A stretch of 64,000 bases of DNA from Brevibacillus choshinensis (GTDB lineage Bacteria; Bacillota; Bacilli; Brevibacillales; Brevibacillaceae): assembly GCF_016811915.1 (NCBI RefSeq), contig NZ_CP069127.1:2641001-2705000 (forward strand), in the 5' to 3' direction. Position 1 is the first letter of the stretch; each line of letters opens with the position of its first letter. The notes under the pieces were generated by a model that did no database searches, was not told the origin of the DNA, and saw only the letters and a program-made list of their open reading frames with translations. The translations under genes were made by a program, and so were the position numbers. Shown piece after piece: positions 17,883 to 25,252 of this stretch.

Positions 17883-20800
17883 TCACGGAAAAACGTTCAT
17901 GCGCTTCTTCATCGCTTCTTGAATCCGTTGCTCGATTCTCGCTACTTCATATTCAGGGCGTCTCCACCAGTTGCGACTCCAGATCCTTTCTATTGTCCAG
18001 CCCTTGTTTTCCAAAAAGCGTTGTCGGGTAACATCCCTTTCCCTTGCTGTTTTAGAGCTGTGATACATTGCTCCGTCGCATTCGATACCCATCAAATACG
18101 AATTTGGGTTATTTGGATCAACCACCCCTAAGTCGATCCGATACGAAGACTCACCGACTTGTGTAACTAATCGATATCCCTTCTCGGAAAGGGCGTTGTA
18201 AACCTCCTCTTCAAAAGTGCTATCGAACTTCAATTCTTTACTGTCTTGACTCATTTTATAATCGGAGTTAATTCGAGCTAACACCGACTTCGCCATCTGG
18301 AGATTGCCTTCTGAGATTGCATAGGCATATTCCAAAAATCGCTTAAAGTAATAGACGCCTCTATTTTCTTCATCTCCTGCCATTTCTGAAGGATAGAGGG
18401 AGGCGACGATACGCATTCCTTGCTTTGCCCGTGTAATTGCTACGTTTAGACGATTCTCACCATCATCGTGATTAATCAAACCAAATCGCCCCGAAGTATT
18501 TCCTTTCACATCTCTTGCATAAGTTACCGAGAAAATGATGATGTCGCGCTCGTCCCCTTGGATATTTTCGATGTTACGGACGATCAAAGTTTTCTCTAAA
18601 TCTCCCCCCATCACTTGGTTATAAACTACGCCAAACTCCGAATCTTCTTGTGCTCTCCGTGCAATCAGCCGCTCGATGAGATCCTGTTGGTGACCATTCA
18701 TTGCTACTACACCCAAGGAGAGGGTCCGATCACCATGAAGGTAATGGTCTCCTATCAGATCTACGACTTTCTTAGCTTCTGCCATATTTGAATTGTTAGC
18801 CCACTGCCCATTCTCCACATGAAACCATTGGATCGATGGAGGATCTTGGGTTGGGAGGACATTTGGGGCCACTTGGATATTCTTATAAAAAGCGTGGTTC
18901 GAGAAATTTATAAGCTCCTCGTATTTCGAACGGTAATGCCACTTTAACGGTTTTGGTTTGAAATTGAGCTTTGCTAAATCTAACAGGGACTCAGCTGTCT
19001 GGATGTCCTCGTAATAGTCTTCGTCGTCTTCATCCATTACGTACGTCTTCTTACCGATCATAGTTGGTTTTAATTGTTTTTCATCCCCAGCTACTATAAT
19101 GCGACGTCCACGAAACAAAGCTGGTATGCCGTACTCTGCTGGACATTGACTCGCCTCATCAAAGATGACGAGGTCAAACAGTTCTTTTTCTAAGGGAAAA
19201 ATGGTGCTCGCTATAGAAGGAGACACCAACCAGACGGGCACAACTTTGGCCAATATATCGGGGTATTCTTGGAGCAATTTCCGAATTGGCCATGTTTTGT
19301 TTTTCAATCCACAACGATAAGCGATATCACTCCTTACCTTTTCGGGAATTTCAGTAATTTCGTGCTTAAGTTTCATTCGAAGGTATAAAGCGGAGACTTC
19401 TTGTTTTCGTTTTAATAAAGCGGCGAATTGTTGACGCTGGATTTCGTACTCATCTTCAGACACATCTTTGACCTTTGGATTTCCTTCTTCTGCAACATGA
19501 ATCCAATAGTCAAGGTAAGCTTGTTCAACTAGCTCCCACCAAATTGATCCCTGTGATAGTTCTTTAATGGGGGGGATAGTTTGCATACACATTTTAAAGA
19601 TCTCTTGCTCCGTATTAGGGAGGGACGCTACTTCCCGATCCATTTGTTTCATCTCGTCCCAATCTGATAGCAAGGAATCATGTAATCCTTGCAGCCAGTC
19701 ACGTAAGGATTCTCCCTGTTTCCATCGGTGGTATTGATCTTGGAGATAATCTTCTGGGAAAAGGGGAGTTAAACTATGTATGTGCTGCTCAAACTGCTCA
19801 CGTGTTTCTCGCCACCTCCGAAAGTTGGAGAAGTGATCCAATAACTTGTCCCATTCGAGTTCATCATGTCCTCCTAACCGAGTGACAACATGTTGATTTT
19901 TCTTTACCCAACGATTCCAATACCACTTAGCTAGCCACTTCCTATCCATGGCACGACGTAAGAGTGAATGACCTTGATCAAATGCTTGTCCATTTCTCTC
20001 TAGATAACTTATGGGGAATCCTAAAGTTTCCCACTGGTGCCGTTCTAGTGCCTCCTGTTCTTCTTGAACTAAAAGTGCGCCAAAAACATCAAACCATTGA
20101 TTGCGCTTCGTGATATCCCAATCTGCAAGGCTTTTTCTCTTGGACCACGGATGCCCAGCATGGAGATAGCGACTGGCGTAGCGCCCGAGACGCTCTAATT
20201 TTTCTTTAAGTTTGTCTATATCATCTACCCTCATATCATACCCCTTCGAAGGCAGACGAAAGAGGGGGGCTTTGTTCCTATACTTTAAAGCCCGATCGTA
20301 CATCCGAAATAAGGATATACCATTGGATTGGTTTAGCCATAGCGTATCAGATATACCTTTTAAATATGTCGTCTTTACCGCAATTTGTTCGGAGTAATGA
20401 GTGTACTCCCGTTTAGCTCGTTCGAACTCTACGTTATGTGTACCTCCAACAAGTTTTGCAATTTTATCATAAAGCAAACTCCGATCTTCTTTTTCATCGT
20501 GGACCAACGCAACAAATTCCTCTAAACCAACCTCCTGCAACCGTTGTAGTACGACGGTCAAGGCGGCTTTCTTTTCCGCAACCAATAGTACTGGTTTACC
20601 GAGTCTGATGGTGTCAGCGATTAAATTGACTATCATCTGGGACTTACCTGACCCTGGTGGCCCATTTACGACGATCCCTCGTTCAAAGCGAGCTGACAAT
20701 ATCACTTCCTCTTGTGATGAATCGGAATCGAGGATAAATACATGCTCTTCTTCCTTACCTTCATCCACGTTGAGTATCGGTTTTTTGTCAGTTTCTCCGA

Positions 20801-21665
20801 GCTCTAATGTGAGTTCATTTAATAAAGCCGCCACTAAATCCGCTTTTTCTCCTTGCTCGACTTCTTTTATTAACGATTGATAGTCTTTTGAAATGCCCCT
20901 TTTCCCTTGACTAAATTGCCCGAGGATTGCATGTGGGACGATTTGAAGTGGAGTTTCAACTTGATCCCATGCAAACTTCTTCGTGGATTCTTTTGGGATG
21001 ACTCCGTCCTTTAACATCTTCAAATAGTCATCAAAAGGAACAAGTGACAGGTTTTGATGTGGTTGAGGAGAGTGAAGGGGAAGGCCCCAATCCCATAGCA
21101 TGGTTTGGTATGATACTAGGTCATAGGGATCTTTCAATGGAAGCGTTTGTTCCAATTGACTGTCGTTTATCTTGATTTCATTGGCTTGTTGGACGGCCAG
21201 AATTAAAGCTCGATTCCAACTTACTTCCCCGTCTTCTTCAAAGGAAAGAAACCAATCTCCGTCTTTCTTCTTTAGCTCAACCGGATAGAAAAGTAGTGGA
21301 CCATGAATAAAGGAGCCATCTTGCAATTTTCCTGAAAGAAAGGGGAACCCAACAAACATATCCCGCTCGCCTGTTTCCGTATGGCGAGTGGTCCATTCTT
21401 TATGAAGATCTTTACATTGATTCGTCCATTTCGTTTCATCCATTAGAGGACTCTTTGATAGAGTAATTTGTAGGTTGCTGGTATTTCGGTGAAGAATGAC
21501 GTGATCAAGAAGATCAAAATTGCTTATCCTTCCTTGAGGAATGGTTGTTAAATCAATATAAGACTTATCGCATTGGGTAAAACGAATGTTTTTATTGTTT
21601 CTTCGAAGATCATTTAATTTGTCATGGTATTTTTTGAGCTTGTCCACGAGTTGCATAGGGATCAC
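17883..21665 (-). CDS. Superfamily 1 helicase with C-terminal PD-(D/E)XK/MTES-type nuclease (candidate defence protein)
   Basis: This 1260-aa protein has three parts. The N-terminal third (about 1-300) resembles the DUF4011-type region of large COG1112 helicases (VGFPFLSGKLQDG...GPLLFYPVEL). The Upf1-like SF1 helicase follows, with Walker A GPPGSGKS at 335-342, DEASQ at 836-840, GDEKQLKP after it, and motif VI in NVAITRAKQGMRIV near 1075. The C-terminus (about 1160-1255) is a Vsr/MTES-like nuclease with D1178 in RIDLGVVD and E1195-C-D1197 in GIECDG. Such fusions occur mainly in defence islands. No methylase or partner gene is adjacent. The start ATG at 21665 has AGGTGAT just upstream. Confidence 0.82.
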   Translation of the reverse strand: MIPMQLVDKLKKYHDKLNDLRRNNKNIRFTQCDKSYIDLTTIPQGRISNFDLLDHVILHRNTSNLQITLSKSPLMDETKWTNQCKDLHKEWTTRHTETGERDMFVGFPFLSGKLQDGSFIHGPLLFYPVELKKKDGDWFLSFEEDGEVSWNRALILAVQQANEIKINDSQLEQTLPLKDPYDLVSYQTMLWDWGLPLHSPQPHQNLSLVPFDDYLKMLKDGVIPKESTKKFAWDQVETPLQIVPHAILGQFSQGKRGISKDYQSLIKEVEQGEKADLVAALLNELTLELGETDKKPILNVDEGKEEEHVFILDSDSSQEEVILSARFERGIVVNGPPGSGKSQMIVNLIADTIRLGKPVLLVAEKKAALTVVLQRLQEVGLEEFVALVHDEKEDRSLLYDKIAKLVGGTHNVEFERAKREYTHYSEQIAVKTTYLKGISDTLWLNQSNGISLFRMYDRALKYRNKAPLFRLPSKGYDMRVDDIDKLKEKLERLGRYASRYLHAGHPWSKRKSLADWDITKRNQWFDVFGALLVQEEQEALERHQWETLGFPISYLERNGQAFDQGHSLLRRAMDRKWLAKWYWNRWVKKNQHVVTRLGGHDELEWDKLLDHFSNFRRWRETREQFEQHIHSLTPLFPEDYLQDQYHRWKQGESLRDWLQGLHDSLLSDWDEMKQMDREVASLPNTEQEIFKMCMQTIPPIKELSQGSIWWELVEQAYLDYWIHVAEEGNPKVKDVSEDEYEIQRQQFAALLKRKQEVSALYLRMKLKHEITEIPEKVRSDIAYRCGLKNKTWPIRKLLQEYPDILAKVVPVWLVSPSIASTIFPLEKELFDLVIFDEASQCPAEYGIPALFRGRRIIVAGDEKQLKPTMIGKKTYVMDEDDEDYYEDIQTAESLLDLAKLNFKPKPLKWHYRSKYEELINFSNHAFYKNIQVAPNVLPTQDPPSIQWFHVENGQWANNSNMAEAKKVVDLIGDHYLHGDRTLSLGVVAMNGHQQDLIERLIARRAQEDSEFGVVYNQVMGGDLEKTLIVRNIENIQGDERDIIIFSVTYARDVKGNTSGRFGLINHDDGENRLNVAITRAKQGMRIVASLYPSEMAGDEENRGVYYFKRFLEYAYAISEGNLQMAKSVLARINSDYKMSQDSKELKFDSTFEEEVYNALSEKGYRLVTQVGESSYRIDLGVVDPNNPNSYLMGIECDGAMYHSSKTARERDVTRQRFLENKGWTIERIWSRNWWRRPEYEVARIEQRIQEAMKKRMNVFP

Positions 21666-22544
21666 CTGTCATCTACGTAGTTGTGTTTGTTTTTAGTATT
21701 TCTTAAGAGTGGGTAGCATAGACCTTTAGACCTATAAGTTGAAAACTAAATATGTTTTATTGATTAACCTAGTTCTTGTTTATCGGTAGCTTAATAAGGG
21801 GATTCAACACGATCAGTGGACATCCCATCGAATACTTTTACCTACAACTATGACGTATTCACATTTTTGTTTTTCAGGCATTGTTCTGTTCCGATCAACT
21901 CCCAAGCCGAGAGGGGAAAAACATGCCTAAAAACTCGAGATACGGATCCTATGAACGAAATCATAAAAAATTGAGGATGCACCCTCTTCTATGTTCAGTA
22001 CTATTTTGTGAGTTAGTTCTAACGGGAAGCAAGTGATCTTTCTAGCGATTAATGTTGCTGAACCTGACCTTTTGCTACATCTCCTCAGATTTAAGAGCGG
22101 GTTAAATACATCAAACAGCGTCTGTGATTACCCCAGATTCGCATACACAAAACAGCGTCTGTGATTACCCCAGATTCGCATACACAAAACCTCGAAGCGG
22201 TGAAGTTATCGACAACATTTAGTCCAGCGGCATGGTGGTCAAGCTAAATGATGGCGTTTAGAACTTAACATGCTAATTATAGCTATCATTGAGTATTAGA
22301 AAAGCTCATACCTCATTCCTCATACCAACTTTACGATTCATCATGATCCTACGGGTCGTCTTCAGCTTAATAGTGTATTGGTTTGGAATGCTTGTAGGAT
22401 GACTTGATTCAGGGTGGAAAATGCCAGACTTTATCGATATAATGTTATTATTCTGAAAATATCGCATTTCGACAACGGCGTCGATCTGCCTTGTTTTTTT
22501 AATGAATGTGCACGTCCATTCTCTGAGAAACTGGAGGTGGAGTT
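21666..22544. other. Gene-poor 0.9-kb gap
   Basis: No recognisable gene, RNA or promoter consensus was found. It holds a 37-bp tandem duplication at 22113-22186. It also holds a 37-codon open frame at 21923-22036 (plus strand) with a good ribosome site (GAGAGGGG) but no recognisable product. The composition is AT-rich and looks like decayed sequence at the right edge of the accessory region. Confidence 0.5.
22113..22190. repeat. 37-bp tandem duplication, two copies
   Basis: Copy 1 is 22113-22149 and copy 2 is 22150-22186. They are identical, and the first four bases of a third copy (AAAC) follow. Each unit starts AAACAGCGTCTG. With two directly abutting copies and no spacer this is not a CRISPR array. 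Confidence 0.9.
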
Positions 22545-22916
22545 TTGCGTCAACCCTATCGAATCATTGTCATTGATGACGATCCGATCACTCGCATGGA
22601 CTTGATCGAGATGCTGCAGGAGGTCGGATATCATATCGTGGCTGAAGGTAAAAATGGAGAAGAAGCAGTCCGCTTGACGCAAACGTGGCACCCCGATCTC
22701 CTCATCATGGACGTGAAGATGCCGGTCATGGACGGGTTGACAGCGACTGGAATCATTCGCAGCTGCTCAGATACCGCGATCCTGCTCTTGACGGCTTACA
22801 GCCAAAAGGACATGGTGGTGCAGGCGATGGCCAAGGGTGTAAGCGCTTATCTGATCAAACCGGTCATGGAAGAGGAGTTTTTGCCCGCCGTGGAACAAGT
22901 CCTGACGAACCGTTAA
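22545..22916 (+). CDS. Stand-alone response-regulator receiver, EutV-like but without ANTAR domain
   Basis: The 123-aa protein is a single receiver domain. It has the acidic pair DDD near residue 12, the phosphoacceptor D56 in LLIMDVKMP, a Thr in LLLTAYS and the invariant Lys in YLIKP. The start is TTG at 22545 behind GGAGGTGG. Its position before eutBC and its sequence resemble EutV/AmiR-type regulators, which add an RNA-binding ANTAR domain of about 60 residues. Here the protein stops right after the receiver, and no ANTAR sequence appears in the following frames. No sensor kinase is adjacent. It may be a truncated regulator or a Spo0F/CheY-like phosphate relay protein. Confidence 0.8.
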   Translation: MRQPYRIIVIDDDPITRMDLIEMLQEVGYHIVAEGKNGEEAVRLTQTWHPDLLIMDVKMPVMDGLTATGIIRSCSDTAILLLTAYSQKDMVVQAMAKGVSAYLIKPVMEEEFLPAVEQVLTNR

Positions 22917-22948
22917 AGCAGCAGAGAAAAGTGAACAAAAAAAGCAAC

Positions 22949-23007
22949 GGCGCTTTGGAAGCATACGGTCACAACCGTGTGTTCGTTCAAGGCGTCTTTT
23001 TGTTTTT
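22949..23007 (+). terminator. Terminator or attenuator between the receiver gene and eutB
   Basis: Arms at 22949-22957 and 22988-22996 pair over 9 bp (two G-U) and are followed by CTTTTTGTTTTT. The loop contains its own hairpin, ACGGT (22965-22969) and ACCGT (22974-22978). Placed in the eutB leader, it could attenuate eutBC. ANTAR proteins act by antitermination at such sites, but the canonical paired hexaloops were not recognised. Confidence 0.65.
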
Positions 23008-23042
23008 CTATGACCCGATCCAACAGAAAGAGAGTGATACCC

Positions 23043-24404
23043 ATGAAATTGGCATGTGTCATCCGCAAACAACACTATTCGTTTGGTTCTGTGCGTGAAG
23101 TGCTGGCAAAGGCGAGTGAAGAAAAATCCGGTGATCAAATGAGCAAAATCGCGGCACAATCAGCCCTGGAGCGGATGGCTGCGAAAGTCGTGCTCAGTGA
23201 GATGACACTGGCGGATTTGTATGAAAACCCTGTGATCCCGTATGAGAAGGATGAAGTCACCCGGATCATTTACGATGACCTGAACCTTTCGATTTACGAA
23301 GAAATCAAAAATTGGACGGTCGGTGAACTGCGGGAGTACATTTTGTCCTTTTCGTCCGGAATGTCTGAGCTGACTCGTATCAGCCGTGGTTTGACCAGTG
23401 AAATGATAGCTGCGACGGCCAAGCTGATGTCGAGCATCGACCTCGTGATGGCCTCGCAAAAGATGCGTCATCAAGCGTATTGCAATACATTGATCGGTGA
23501 GCCTGGCCGACTCGCGTTTCGCTGTCAGCCCAATCATCCGATCGATGATCCGGAAGGGATTCTCGCCTCTATCAAGGAAGGGCTCTCCTACGGGTCGGGG
23601 GACGCGGTCATCGGGATCAACCCAAACAACGATTCAGTCGAAAGCGTCACGAAGCTGCTCAAGATGAGCCATGAATTCATGCAAAAGTGGGAGATTCCGA
23701 CGCAAAACTGCGTGCTCGCACATATCACGACACAGATGCAGGCATTGCGCGGTGGCGCCCCGATTTCCCTGATGTTTCAGAGCCTGGCCGGCTCACAGCG
23801 CGCCAACGAGGCATTCGGTGTCTCCAAAGACCTGTTGGACGAGGCGATGGAGCTGATGCTGCGCAAAGGGACGGCAGCAGGGCCAAATGTGATGTACTTT
23901 GAGACGGGTCAAGGCTCAGAGGTATCGCTGGATTCACATGAAGGTGTCGACATGCAGACCTTGGAGGCGAGAACGTACGGTTTCTGTCGTCACTGGAAGC
24001 CTTTCATGGTCAATAACGTCTCAGGGTTCATCGGACCGGAGACGCTTTACGACGGCAGGCAAATGATCCGAGCCGATCTGGAAGATTTGTTCATGGGAAA
24101 GCTGCACGGATTGCCCATGGGAATCGCACCGACCTATACCAATCACATGAATGCCGATCAGAATGACCAGGAGATCGCTGGAATGCTGACGACGCTGGCT
24201 GGCGCCAACTTTTACATGGGGGTACCCGGCGGAGACGATGTCATGCTCAGCTACCAGGATACGAGCTACCACGACGATGCTAGCTATCGGGAGCTACTCG
24301 GCCTGAGACCGCTGCGCGAGTTTGAAAAATGGCTGGAGAAGATGGGGATCATGGAAAATGGTCGACTGACAGAGCGGGCAGGGGACTTGTCCATTTTTGA
24401 CTAG
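23043..24404 (+). CDS. eutB: Ethanolamine ammonia-lyase large subunit
   Basis: With EutC and adenosylcobalamin this subunit converts ethanolamine to acetaldehyde and ammonia. The start ATG 23043 (MKLACVIRKQHYSFGSVREVLAKA, AAAGAGAG upstream) gives 453 aa, the usual family length. A frame open further upstream to 22977 would run back into the terminator. Family blocks include LTSEMIAATAKLMSSIDL, YCNTLIGEPGRLAFRCQPNHP and the C-terminal GVPGGDDVMLSYQDTS. There are no shell genes, eutA reactivase, aldehyde dehydrogenase or permease next to it. The likely role is nitrogen acquisition rather than a microcompartment pathway. Confidence 0.96.
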   Translation: MKLACVIRKQHYSFGSVREVLAKASEEKSGDQMSKIAAQSALERMAAKVVLSEMTLADLYENPVIPYEKDEVTRIIYDDLNLSIYEEIKNWTVGELREYILSFSSGMSELTRISRGLTSEMIAATAKLMSSIDLVMASQKMRHQAYCNTLIGEPGRLAFRCQPNHPIDDPEGILASIKEGLSYGSGDAVIGINPNNDSVESVTKLLKMSHEFMQKWEIPTQNCVLAHITTQMQALRGGAPISLMFQSLAGSQRANEAFGVSKDLLDEAMELMLRKGTAAGPNVMYFETGQGSEVSLDSHEGVDMQTLEARTYGFCRHWKPFMVNNVSGFIGPETLYDGRQMIRADLEDLFMGKLHGLPMGIAPTYTNHMNADQNDQEIAGMLTTLAGANFYMGVPGGDDVMLSYQDTSYHDDASYRELLGLRPLREFEKWLEKMGIMENGRLTERAGDLSIFD

Positions 24405-24424: not shown

Positions 24425-25252
24425 ATGAAACCAATCGATGTGGATGATCTGGTACAGCGTGTCTGGGAAGAAATGATGCGGAAGAGGCAGGAGGCCATTC
24501 CATTTCCAGAGCAGAAGCAACGGGGCGTCGAGCGTCCAAAGAACCCGGAAGCGTTGGAGCGAGCGATGAATCGGACGCCTGCTCGAATCGGCATCGGCAG
24601 GGCAGGGACTCGGATGAAGACCGGAAGCTACCTGCAATTTCGCATTGATCAGGCGGCGGCTCAGGACGCGGTCATGAAATCGATCAGTCCCGACTGGCTC
24701 GAACAGCTTCAGCTGCCGGCCCTCTGCACGAGAGCGAAAGACATGCAGGAATATTTGATGAATCTCGATTCCGGCCGGATGCTCTCGAATGAATCCGCCG
24801 CTTGGCTGCAGCGCCATGGAGAGATGGGAAAAGACGTGCAGATCATCATATCGGACGGCCTCAGCACGTCCGCATGCGAAGCCACCATACCTGACTTGCT
24901 GCCAGCACTGATGCAAGGGCTGACATTGAAAAAGATCAGCGTCGCAAAACCGATCTTCATCCACAGAGGGCGAGTATGGGTGCAGGATCATGTCGCTTCC
25001 ATCGTGAAATGCAAGGTGGTTATTTCGTTGATTGGGGAGCGGCCCGGACTCGCTACAGCGGAAAGCCTAAGCGCCTACATGATCTATCAGCCCAATGAAC
25101 AAACGGTGGAGTCGGATCGCACGGTCATTTCCAACATCCATCGTGGAGGGACACCACCGATCGAAGCGGGCGCCTATTTGGCGGAGATTCTGGAGGAGAT
25201 TTTACGCTATCGAGCGAGTGGGGTAAAATACGCCCAAATGCGTTTGAAATAA
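24425..25252 (+). CDS. eutC: Ethanolamine ammonia-lyase small subunit
   Basis: This subunit completes the cobalamin-binding site of EutB. The 275-aa protein has the family blocks ARIGIGRAGTRMKTGSYLQFRIDQAAAQDAV, VQIIISDGLSTSACEA and VVISLIGERPGLATAESLSAYMIYQP. GAGGAGGGG lies before the ATG. The gene starts 20 nt after eutB, so the two are cotranscribed. The N-terminal 40 residues are the variable linker normal for EutC. Confidence 0.95.
   Translation: MKPIDVDDLVQRVWEEMMRKRQEAIPFPEQKQRGVERPKNPEALERAMNRTPARIGIGRAGTRMKTGSYLQFRIDQAAAQDAVMKSISPDWLEQLQLPALCTRAKDMQEYLMNLDSGRMLSNESAAWLQRHGEMGKDVQIIISDGLSTSACEATIPDLLPALMQGLTLKKISVAKPIFIHRGRVWVQDHVASIVKCKVVISLIGERPGLATAESLSAYMIYQPNEQTVESDRTVISNIHRGGTPPIEAGAYLAEILEEILRYRASGVKYAQMRLK

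Follow-up and report, generated by a model that had tools for sequence, protein, structure and literature searches.

The eutB2C2 genes of Brevibacillus choshinensis raise the question of how a transcription terminator lying right before an ethanolamine ammonia-lyase operon could be relieved, when the response regulator encoded just upstream is not an EutV, because it contains a receiver domain and lacks the C-terminal ANTAR RNA-binding domain. The locus belongs to a window of 64,000 nucleotides (the whole stretch of DNA that was analysed, at 2.64-2.70 Mb of a 6.17 Mb genome assembled in one contig), and its features are collected in Table 1. A preliminary description of this DNA had proposed, among other readings, that RNA binding is carried out by another protein, or that the leader now attenuates eutBC without relief.

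Table 1. Predicted features of the eutB2C2 locus, as positions in the window.
Feature	Position	Strand	Remarks
Sigma-70-type promoter-like site, TGGAAA - 17 nt - TATAAT	22415..22443	+	10/12 matches
P1-type ANTAR hairpin, UCGAC[AACGGC]GUCGA	22469..22484	+	Hexaloop with A1 and G4; AC/GU closing pairs
Receiver-only protein gene, 123 aa	22545..22916	+	Paralogue of the EutV receiver domain, without ANTAR output domain
Linear AAGTGAA element	22926..22936	+	Conserved; precedes the P2 stem
P2-type ANTAR hairpin, AAAGC[AACGGC]GCUUU	22941..22956	+	Excludes the terminator fold, and vice versa
Intrinsic terminator	22949..23001	+	Nested stem 22949-22996; U run 22997-23001
eutB2, second ethanolamine ammonia-lyase large subunit gene	23043..24404	+	ATG start; passes family cut-offs
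eutC2, ethanolamine ammonia-lyase small subunit gene	24425..25252	+	Passes family cut-offs

The receiver-only gene and the EutV/EutW pair

The receiver-only gene starts with a TTG codon preceded by the ribosome-binding site GGAGGTGGAG, and Pfam detects in its product a single domain, Response_reg (PF00072, E 1.8e-26). In agreement with the preliminary description, which had called it a receiver without ANTAR, the ANTAR domain (PF03861) was not found in the protein with Pfam, and a tblastn search of 27 loci, with the C-terminal part of EutV as query and covering 3 kb 5' of eutB2, returned scattered matches only (best E 1.2) and no ANTAR remnant. None of the 25 families listed, of the 103 NCBIfam families matching the protein, was above its cut-off. 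The protein is 62% identical to the receiver domain of EutV from the same genome (residues 3-121), with 9/13, 8/12 and 7/11 identical positions in the likely kinase-contact regions, which are thus not clearly better conserved than the remainder of the domain (46/82). Residues D11, D12, D56, T83 and K105, which we take to be the phosphorylation residues, are invariant in all 19 receiver-only proteins found upstream of eutB2 in the genus, and residue 102 is Y or F. A lone receiver with these residues intact and PF00072 alone resembles the single-domain response regulators, which are known as phosphate sinks or act via protein contact; unlike the known ones, it is encoded in the leader of genes that its full-length paralogue appears to control.

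eutB2 is present in 22 of 26 genomes of the genus, and in 19 of these 22 a receiver-only ORF lies directly upstream, always with a TTG start and coding for 123-135 aa, so that neither a longer ORF nor a frameshifted full EutV, which the preliminary description had considered as an explanation for the missing ANTAR domain, is found at these loci. The receiver is dispensable, since it is absent from the other three eutB2 loci (G012, G025 and G017), which cluster in the EutB2 tree with fork supports of 84/70 to 94/89, under the strict mark. Where present, it has a median dN/dS of 0.07 (65 of 171 pairs, those with 0.05<dS<2; the remaining 106 were excluded as too similar or saturated) and, judged from these substitutions, the gene is under constraint. 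A tree of receiver domains separates the 19 receiver-only proteins, which have longer branches than the genus EutV receivers, from the EutV proteins of the genus (support 85/66 and 94/96), so the duplication that separated them is probably older than the genus, although the support is modest. A tree of 37 EutV proteins showed long branches that meet, and no argument rests on it.

The genome contains two eutB genes, eutB2 and a copy at 5.916 Mb that belongs to the main eut operon. The searches for eutW and for separate ANTAR proteins suggested by the preliminary description led to this main operon, about 3 Mb from the window, where a full EutV of 198 aa, the sole ANTAR protein found in the genome, is encoded beside EutW. 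The same holds across the genus: a single strong ANTAR match (E below 1e-14) and a single EutW (at least 79% identity) were found in each of the 23 eutB-bearing genomes, and neither in the three eutB-free ones; weak ANTAR matches occur in G009 and, as a second match, in G017. EutB is 89-94% identical in the named Brevibacillus species (8 loci).

Two further features of the window were noted upstream of the promoter-like site: a 37-nt unit, aaacagcgtctgtgattaccccagattcgcatacaca, repeated twice in tandem in non-coding DNA (22113-22186, by eye), and a minus-strand gene (17883-21665) for a 1260-aa protein with DUF4011, AAA_11/AAA_12 and MTES_1575 nuclease domains, which may be a defence or DNA-repair gene.

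Terminator and hexaloops of the eutB2 leader

The terminator with a nested hairpin that had been described before eutB is borne out by folding: the 67-nt stretch 22946-23012 reaches -28.2 kcal/mol, vs -13.0 +/- 2.7 in shuffles (z -5.5, 0/200 as good), with an outer stem of 11 bp, an inner stem of 10 bp and a 2-nt bulge, and a longer stretch of 132 nt shows a weaker excess (z -2.2, 4/200 shuffles as good). A simple scan, whose promoter-like and terminator-like sites are no commoner than in shuffles, did not list this terminator, probably since it seeks an unbulged stem directly at a T run. From the receiver stop to eutB no promoter-like site was seen, and a weak one (9/12) lies within the receiver gene (22606-22634).

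The preliminary description did not include the two hexaloops, P1 and P2. The P2 loop carries A1 and G4, its hairpin overlaps the 5' arm of the terminator, and its 3' arm pairs into the terminator in 22/22 eutB2 leaders of the genus (by folding). Because EutV could thus open the terminator, the leader is probably not an attenuator without relief; RNA binding by another protein would fit best, that protein being EutV, the one ANTAR protein found in the genome. Action of the receiver through protein contact, a further reading of the preliminary description, is plausible as well. Among 50 terminator calls on both strands of the window, a P2-like hexaloop was present only at the eutB2-leader terminator, which was called twice, and among 376 calls in 29 loci, nearly all picked for eut genes, it was present in 30, many of them at eut leaders. 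The bare 14-nt P2 pattern, with one mismatch allowed, is not enriched genome-wide (50 matches vs 57 for reversed-pattern controls), so the argument rests on position and conservation and not on the motif alone. Two leaders (G008 and G024) have G instead of A at position 1 of the P2 loop, and the idea that control has been lost there was weakened by the finding of G in leaders of other Bacillales as well.

P1 lies just 3' of the TATAAT box, in the 5' untranslated region of the receiver gene, and ends about 60 nt before its start codon. It was found in 21/22 eutB2 loci of the genus (18 with the receiver and the three without it), the exception being G008, and in G024 its stem has only 3 bp. Over 21 aligned rows, 17 of them distinct, 91.6% of the P1 stem cells are paired (0/500 shuffles as high) and 7 cells are changed on both sides, vs 2.7 +/- 1.3 in shuffles (1/500 as high), the rows being closely related and such rows being able to exceed shuffles without structure; the pairs with changes on both sides (3) and the further pair types (7) are not unusual (150/500 and 226/500 shuffles). 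When the partner is slid by 1-3 columns, pairing falls to 13-52%. Of the 26 genomes, 19 contain a single match to the pattern TATAAT-N10..40-GACAANGGNGTC, each time at the eutB2 locus, and the reversed pattern gave 1 match across all 26.

P1, receiver, P2/terminator and eutBC would be part of one transcript starting from the promoter-like site of Table 1, with the receiver gene between its two hexaloops, since P1 is 5' and P2 is 3' of this gene. This order is found in the window and in 17 further genomes. In the window 456 nt separate the end of P1 from the P2 stem, and the spacing of the two hairpins is about 470 nt. Measured from loop to loop, 17 of the 18 receiver loci that have P1 fall within 467-479 nt and the remaining one (L048) has 501 nt, vs 61-71 nt in the three receiver-less loci. 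A hidden P1 near the receiver stop, CUGCU[ACCGGC]AGUGG (AGUAG in one case), was seen in nine loci and rejected, being absent in the window and in other lineages. Between P1 and the ribosome-binding site of the receiver (22495-22544), a CACGTCCATTCTCT-like stretch is kept in most receiver loci (by eye) and could pair with the GGAGGTG of this site.

In the whole window no Rfam family reached its gathering score. Five cobalamin riboswitches were found in the genome, all of them at places other than the eutB2 leader; the P1/P2 pair was not seen at the two riboswitches inspected, where one isolated match to the hexaloop pattern occurred.

One genome (G007), in which eutB2 and eutH were not found, has kept the receiver gene (L258) with an intact frame of 127 aa, at the same site by eye; the WYL-type regulator gene behind it looks, also by eye, like the WYL-type gene 3' of eutC2 in the window. 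Its P1 is degenerate, with U at loop position 1 (by eye), and a terminator with P2 was not found at this receiver locus. Its receiver has a dN/dS of 0.09-0.17 vs three of four relatives (the fourth comparison is saturated) and carries C at residue 102, vs Y or F in the others, which may be a sign of decay, possibly early. Since G007 keeps the receiver without eutB2, use of the receiver need not depend on eutB2 in cis, and its persistence, in this one genome, points to a role in trans, with EutW or EutV as the target and the receiver competing for phosphate or acting as a dimer partner.

Other eut leaders in Brevibacillus and related Bacillales

eutH is present in the same 22 genomes as eutB2, and each of the 22 eutH leaders carries two motifs, a P1-type hexaloop 7-19 nt behind TATAAT and another one 70-152 nt beyond it, with no receiver-sized gene in the gap. 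The second motif pairs into a terminator in 21/22 (by folding); in the exception, G017, no T run was accepted by the rule. The canonical eutA leader has the same P2/terminator arrangement, and the EutV regulon of Brevibacillus would probably comprise the eutA operon, eutH and eutB2C2. A GCATGC[AACGGC]GCATGC hairpin within the eutV coding sequence, about 120 nt 5' of the canonical P2, was set aside because it spells conserved codons. In 19/22 eutH leaders (L122-L143) the sequence TGAAAGCGGTTCCA, which we take to be like a catabolite-response element, lies between P1 and P2 (by eye) and may add carbon control within the eutH antiterminator. Rfam searches of the eutH leader with an E-value threshold gave five weak matches below the gathering score, which were taken as chance, and a cspA element above the gathering score was found on the minus strand of L143 (335-601).

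An adjacent P1, defined as an A1/G4 hexaloop ending 0-20 nt before the P2 stem, was found in none of 70 leaders (from the genus, 22 each of eutB2 and eutH; from other Bacillales, 17 of eutB2; from the genus and family, 9 canonical eutA leaders obtained from 10 loci given), with a shuffled expectation of 0.1-0.2 per set; L173, where P2 was not detected by the rule, was left out. A control scan of 53 loci (L177-L229), with slightly different stem rules, recovered 13 P2 terminators, 11 of them with a P1 3-8 nt upstream, in clostridia (most), Paenibacillus and B. laterosporus, and one of the two P2 terminators lacking it belongs to a Brevibacillus parabrevis locus. An AAGT element, counted with no shuffle control, starts 12-17 nt 5' of the P2 stem in 22/22 eutB2 leaders of the genus and in 21/21 eutH leaders with a detected P2; it was found in 9/16 leaders of other Bacillales in which P2 was detected (among L159-L175, L183 and L184), in an AAGTGAA-like form 13-14 nt before P2, and in 0/2 other family leaders with P2.

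In the eutB2 leaders of other Bacillales the P2/terminator follows closely behind a predicted promoter-like site (by eye), leaving little room for a P1. An ANTAR gene was found in 20 of the 21 genomes of this group that were searched, the exception being B. massiliensis (L158), where eutB2 is present and neither P2 nor ANTAR was found; two loci, L157 and L176, belong to genomes with ANTAR genes, yet have no clear P2 before eutB2. The single-P2 pattern is, hence, not perfect across these bacteria. In L057 (G035) and in the Lysinibacillus loci L162, L164, L166, L168, L172 and L173, a gene for an EutW-like histidine kinase precedes the eutB2 leader, in the place held by the receiver gene in Brevibacillus.

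Proposed control of eutB2C2 and its alternatives

The system resembles that of E. faecalis, where EutV requires A1 and G4 in the hexaloop (PMC3369931) and P1 has AC/GU closing pairs (in the numbering of that paper). According to published descriptions, antitermination by EutV depends on a pair of hexaloops separated by a few nucleotides, and the structural work poses the need for both as a question (PMC8934654). The P1-P2 linker of the E. faecalis eut leaders is 5-12 nt; induction fell drastically when it was 3 or 14 nt long, and antitermination in vitro was abolished by 20 additional nucleotides (PMC3369931, PMC8934654). Compared with what these sources describe, Brevibacillus shares the A1/G4 hexaloop, a P2 over the 5' arm of the terminator, the closing pairs of P1, the eut target genes and the presence of EutV and EutW in the genome. 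It differs in that P1 lies about 44 to about 490 nt away, or is not found, in that P1 and P2 flank a gene in 18 genomes, that of the window among them, and in having the linear AAGUGAA before P2 and, in the window, a protein without ANTAR.

On balance, we consider it fairly probable that the eutB2C2 leader is an ANTAR-controlled attenuator, in which EutV antiterminates in trans and the receiver protein acts as an EutV-derived modulator. Transcription would begin just 5' of P1, run through the receiver gene and halt at the terminator. In response to ethanolamine, EutW would phosphorylate EutV, both supplied by the main eut operon, and EutV would bind the P2 hexaloop, with help from P1 at the 5' terminus, from the linear AAGUGAA or from both, blocking the terminator and allowing transcription of eutB2C2. 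Because the terminator is 3' of the receiver gene, the short terminated transcript would yield the receiver-only protein also when no inducer is present; most likely this protein would compete with EutV for EutW phosphate, or pair with EutV, setting the induction threshold by tuning EutW/EutV. The P1-P2 gap of about 470 nt, vs 5-12 nt in E. faecalis, speaks against this model, and so do the lack of P1 in G008 and its 3-bp stem in G024, both with G at P2 loop position 1, the ordinary number of P1 pairs changed on both sides, the kinase-contact regions that do not stand out in conservation, the three eutB2 loci lacking the receiver and the C at residue 102 in G007.

It is conceivable, though unlikely, that P1 serves the receiver gene instead, EutV at P1 controlling receiver translation or mRNA stability and P2 (with AAGUGAA) antiterminating alone, which is compatible with the remainder of the EutV attenuator model. 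The position of P1 some 60 nt 5' of the receiver start, the lack of an adjacent P1 in 70/70 leaders and the scant room for it in other Bacillales would agree with such a division of labour, but P1 is retained at the three receiver-less eutB2 loci and in the eutH leaders. These same leaders count against the rather improbable idea that the receiver is a positive partner of EutV, forming mixed dimers with it or helping over the long P1-P2 distance, with no damping: P1 and P2 occur with no receiver in three genomes that form one clade, the eutH leaders carry P1/P2 at a distance of about 70-150 nt with no gene of receiver size between, and G007 retains the receiver though P2 and eutB2 are gone. 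In favour of a partner, the receiver gene sits exactly between P1 and P2 with a steady loop distance (17/18), and phosphorylation makes EutV dimerise (PMC3369931).

A receiver acting on the eutB2 leader independently of EutV, through some other RNA-binding partner, is very improbable; single-domain regulators that work by protein contact are known, and this one has no output domain, but the leader carries ANTAR-type hexaloops, EutV is the one ANTAR protein found in the genome, and strong ANTAR matches follow eutB throughout the genus (23/23 vs 0/3). Still less credible is that the terminator merely ends the receiver gene, with eutB2 using its own promoter and P1 and P2 being there by chance. 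The lack of genome-wide enrichment of the P2 pattern, the shuffle-like frequency of simple-scan sites and the weak promoter-like site inside the receiver would be expected from this; on the other side stand the absence of a promoter-like site between the receiver stop and eutB, the pairing of P2 into the terminator in 22/22 orthologues, the lack of such a hexaloop at the other terminators called in the window, the covariation of P1 and the similar architecture of eutH. That the receiver is the decaying remnant of a truncated EutV copy, the leader now only attenuating, we regard as scarcely tenable: its longer branches and the C at position 102 in G007 are in line with decay, but dN/dS is low, the TTG start is constant and the 19 orthologues contain neither frameshift nor ANTAR remnant.

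In the open-licence literature, to which the search was limited, so that it gives no proof of novelty, no paper on EutV in Brevibacillus was found, and none of the matches listed dealt with eutV/eutW together with Lysinibacillus. The attenuator with an EutV-derived modulator recalls the EutX/Rli55 RNA that sequesters EutV (PMC5821096), as a second layer tuning EutV output in trans, although the candidate tuner is here a protein. What is unusual is the receiver gene between P1 and P2, together with the absence of an adjacent P1 from the leaders examined in this group, suggesting, as far as comparison of genomes can tell, that a known type of RNA switch has been wired in a new way. More tentatively, and with slightly more doubt than belief, this could be generalised: in Brevibacillus and related Bacillales the target of EutV would be a single P2 hexaloop, often with the linear AAGUGAA about 13 nt upstream, the classical P1 being absent (other Bacillales) or shifted to where the transcript begins, as far as about 500 nt off (Brevibacillus), with an EutV-derived receiver gene in the gap whose protein feeds back on the kinase-regulator pair controlling read-through. 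Since the leaders vary naturally, with P1 not found or lying about 45-60, about 60-140 or about 460 nt away, the role of P1 is directly testable. If the model is true, the attenuated transcript would encode a modulator of its own antiterminator.
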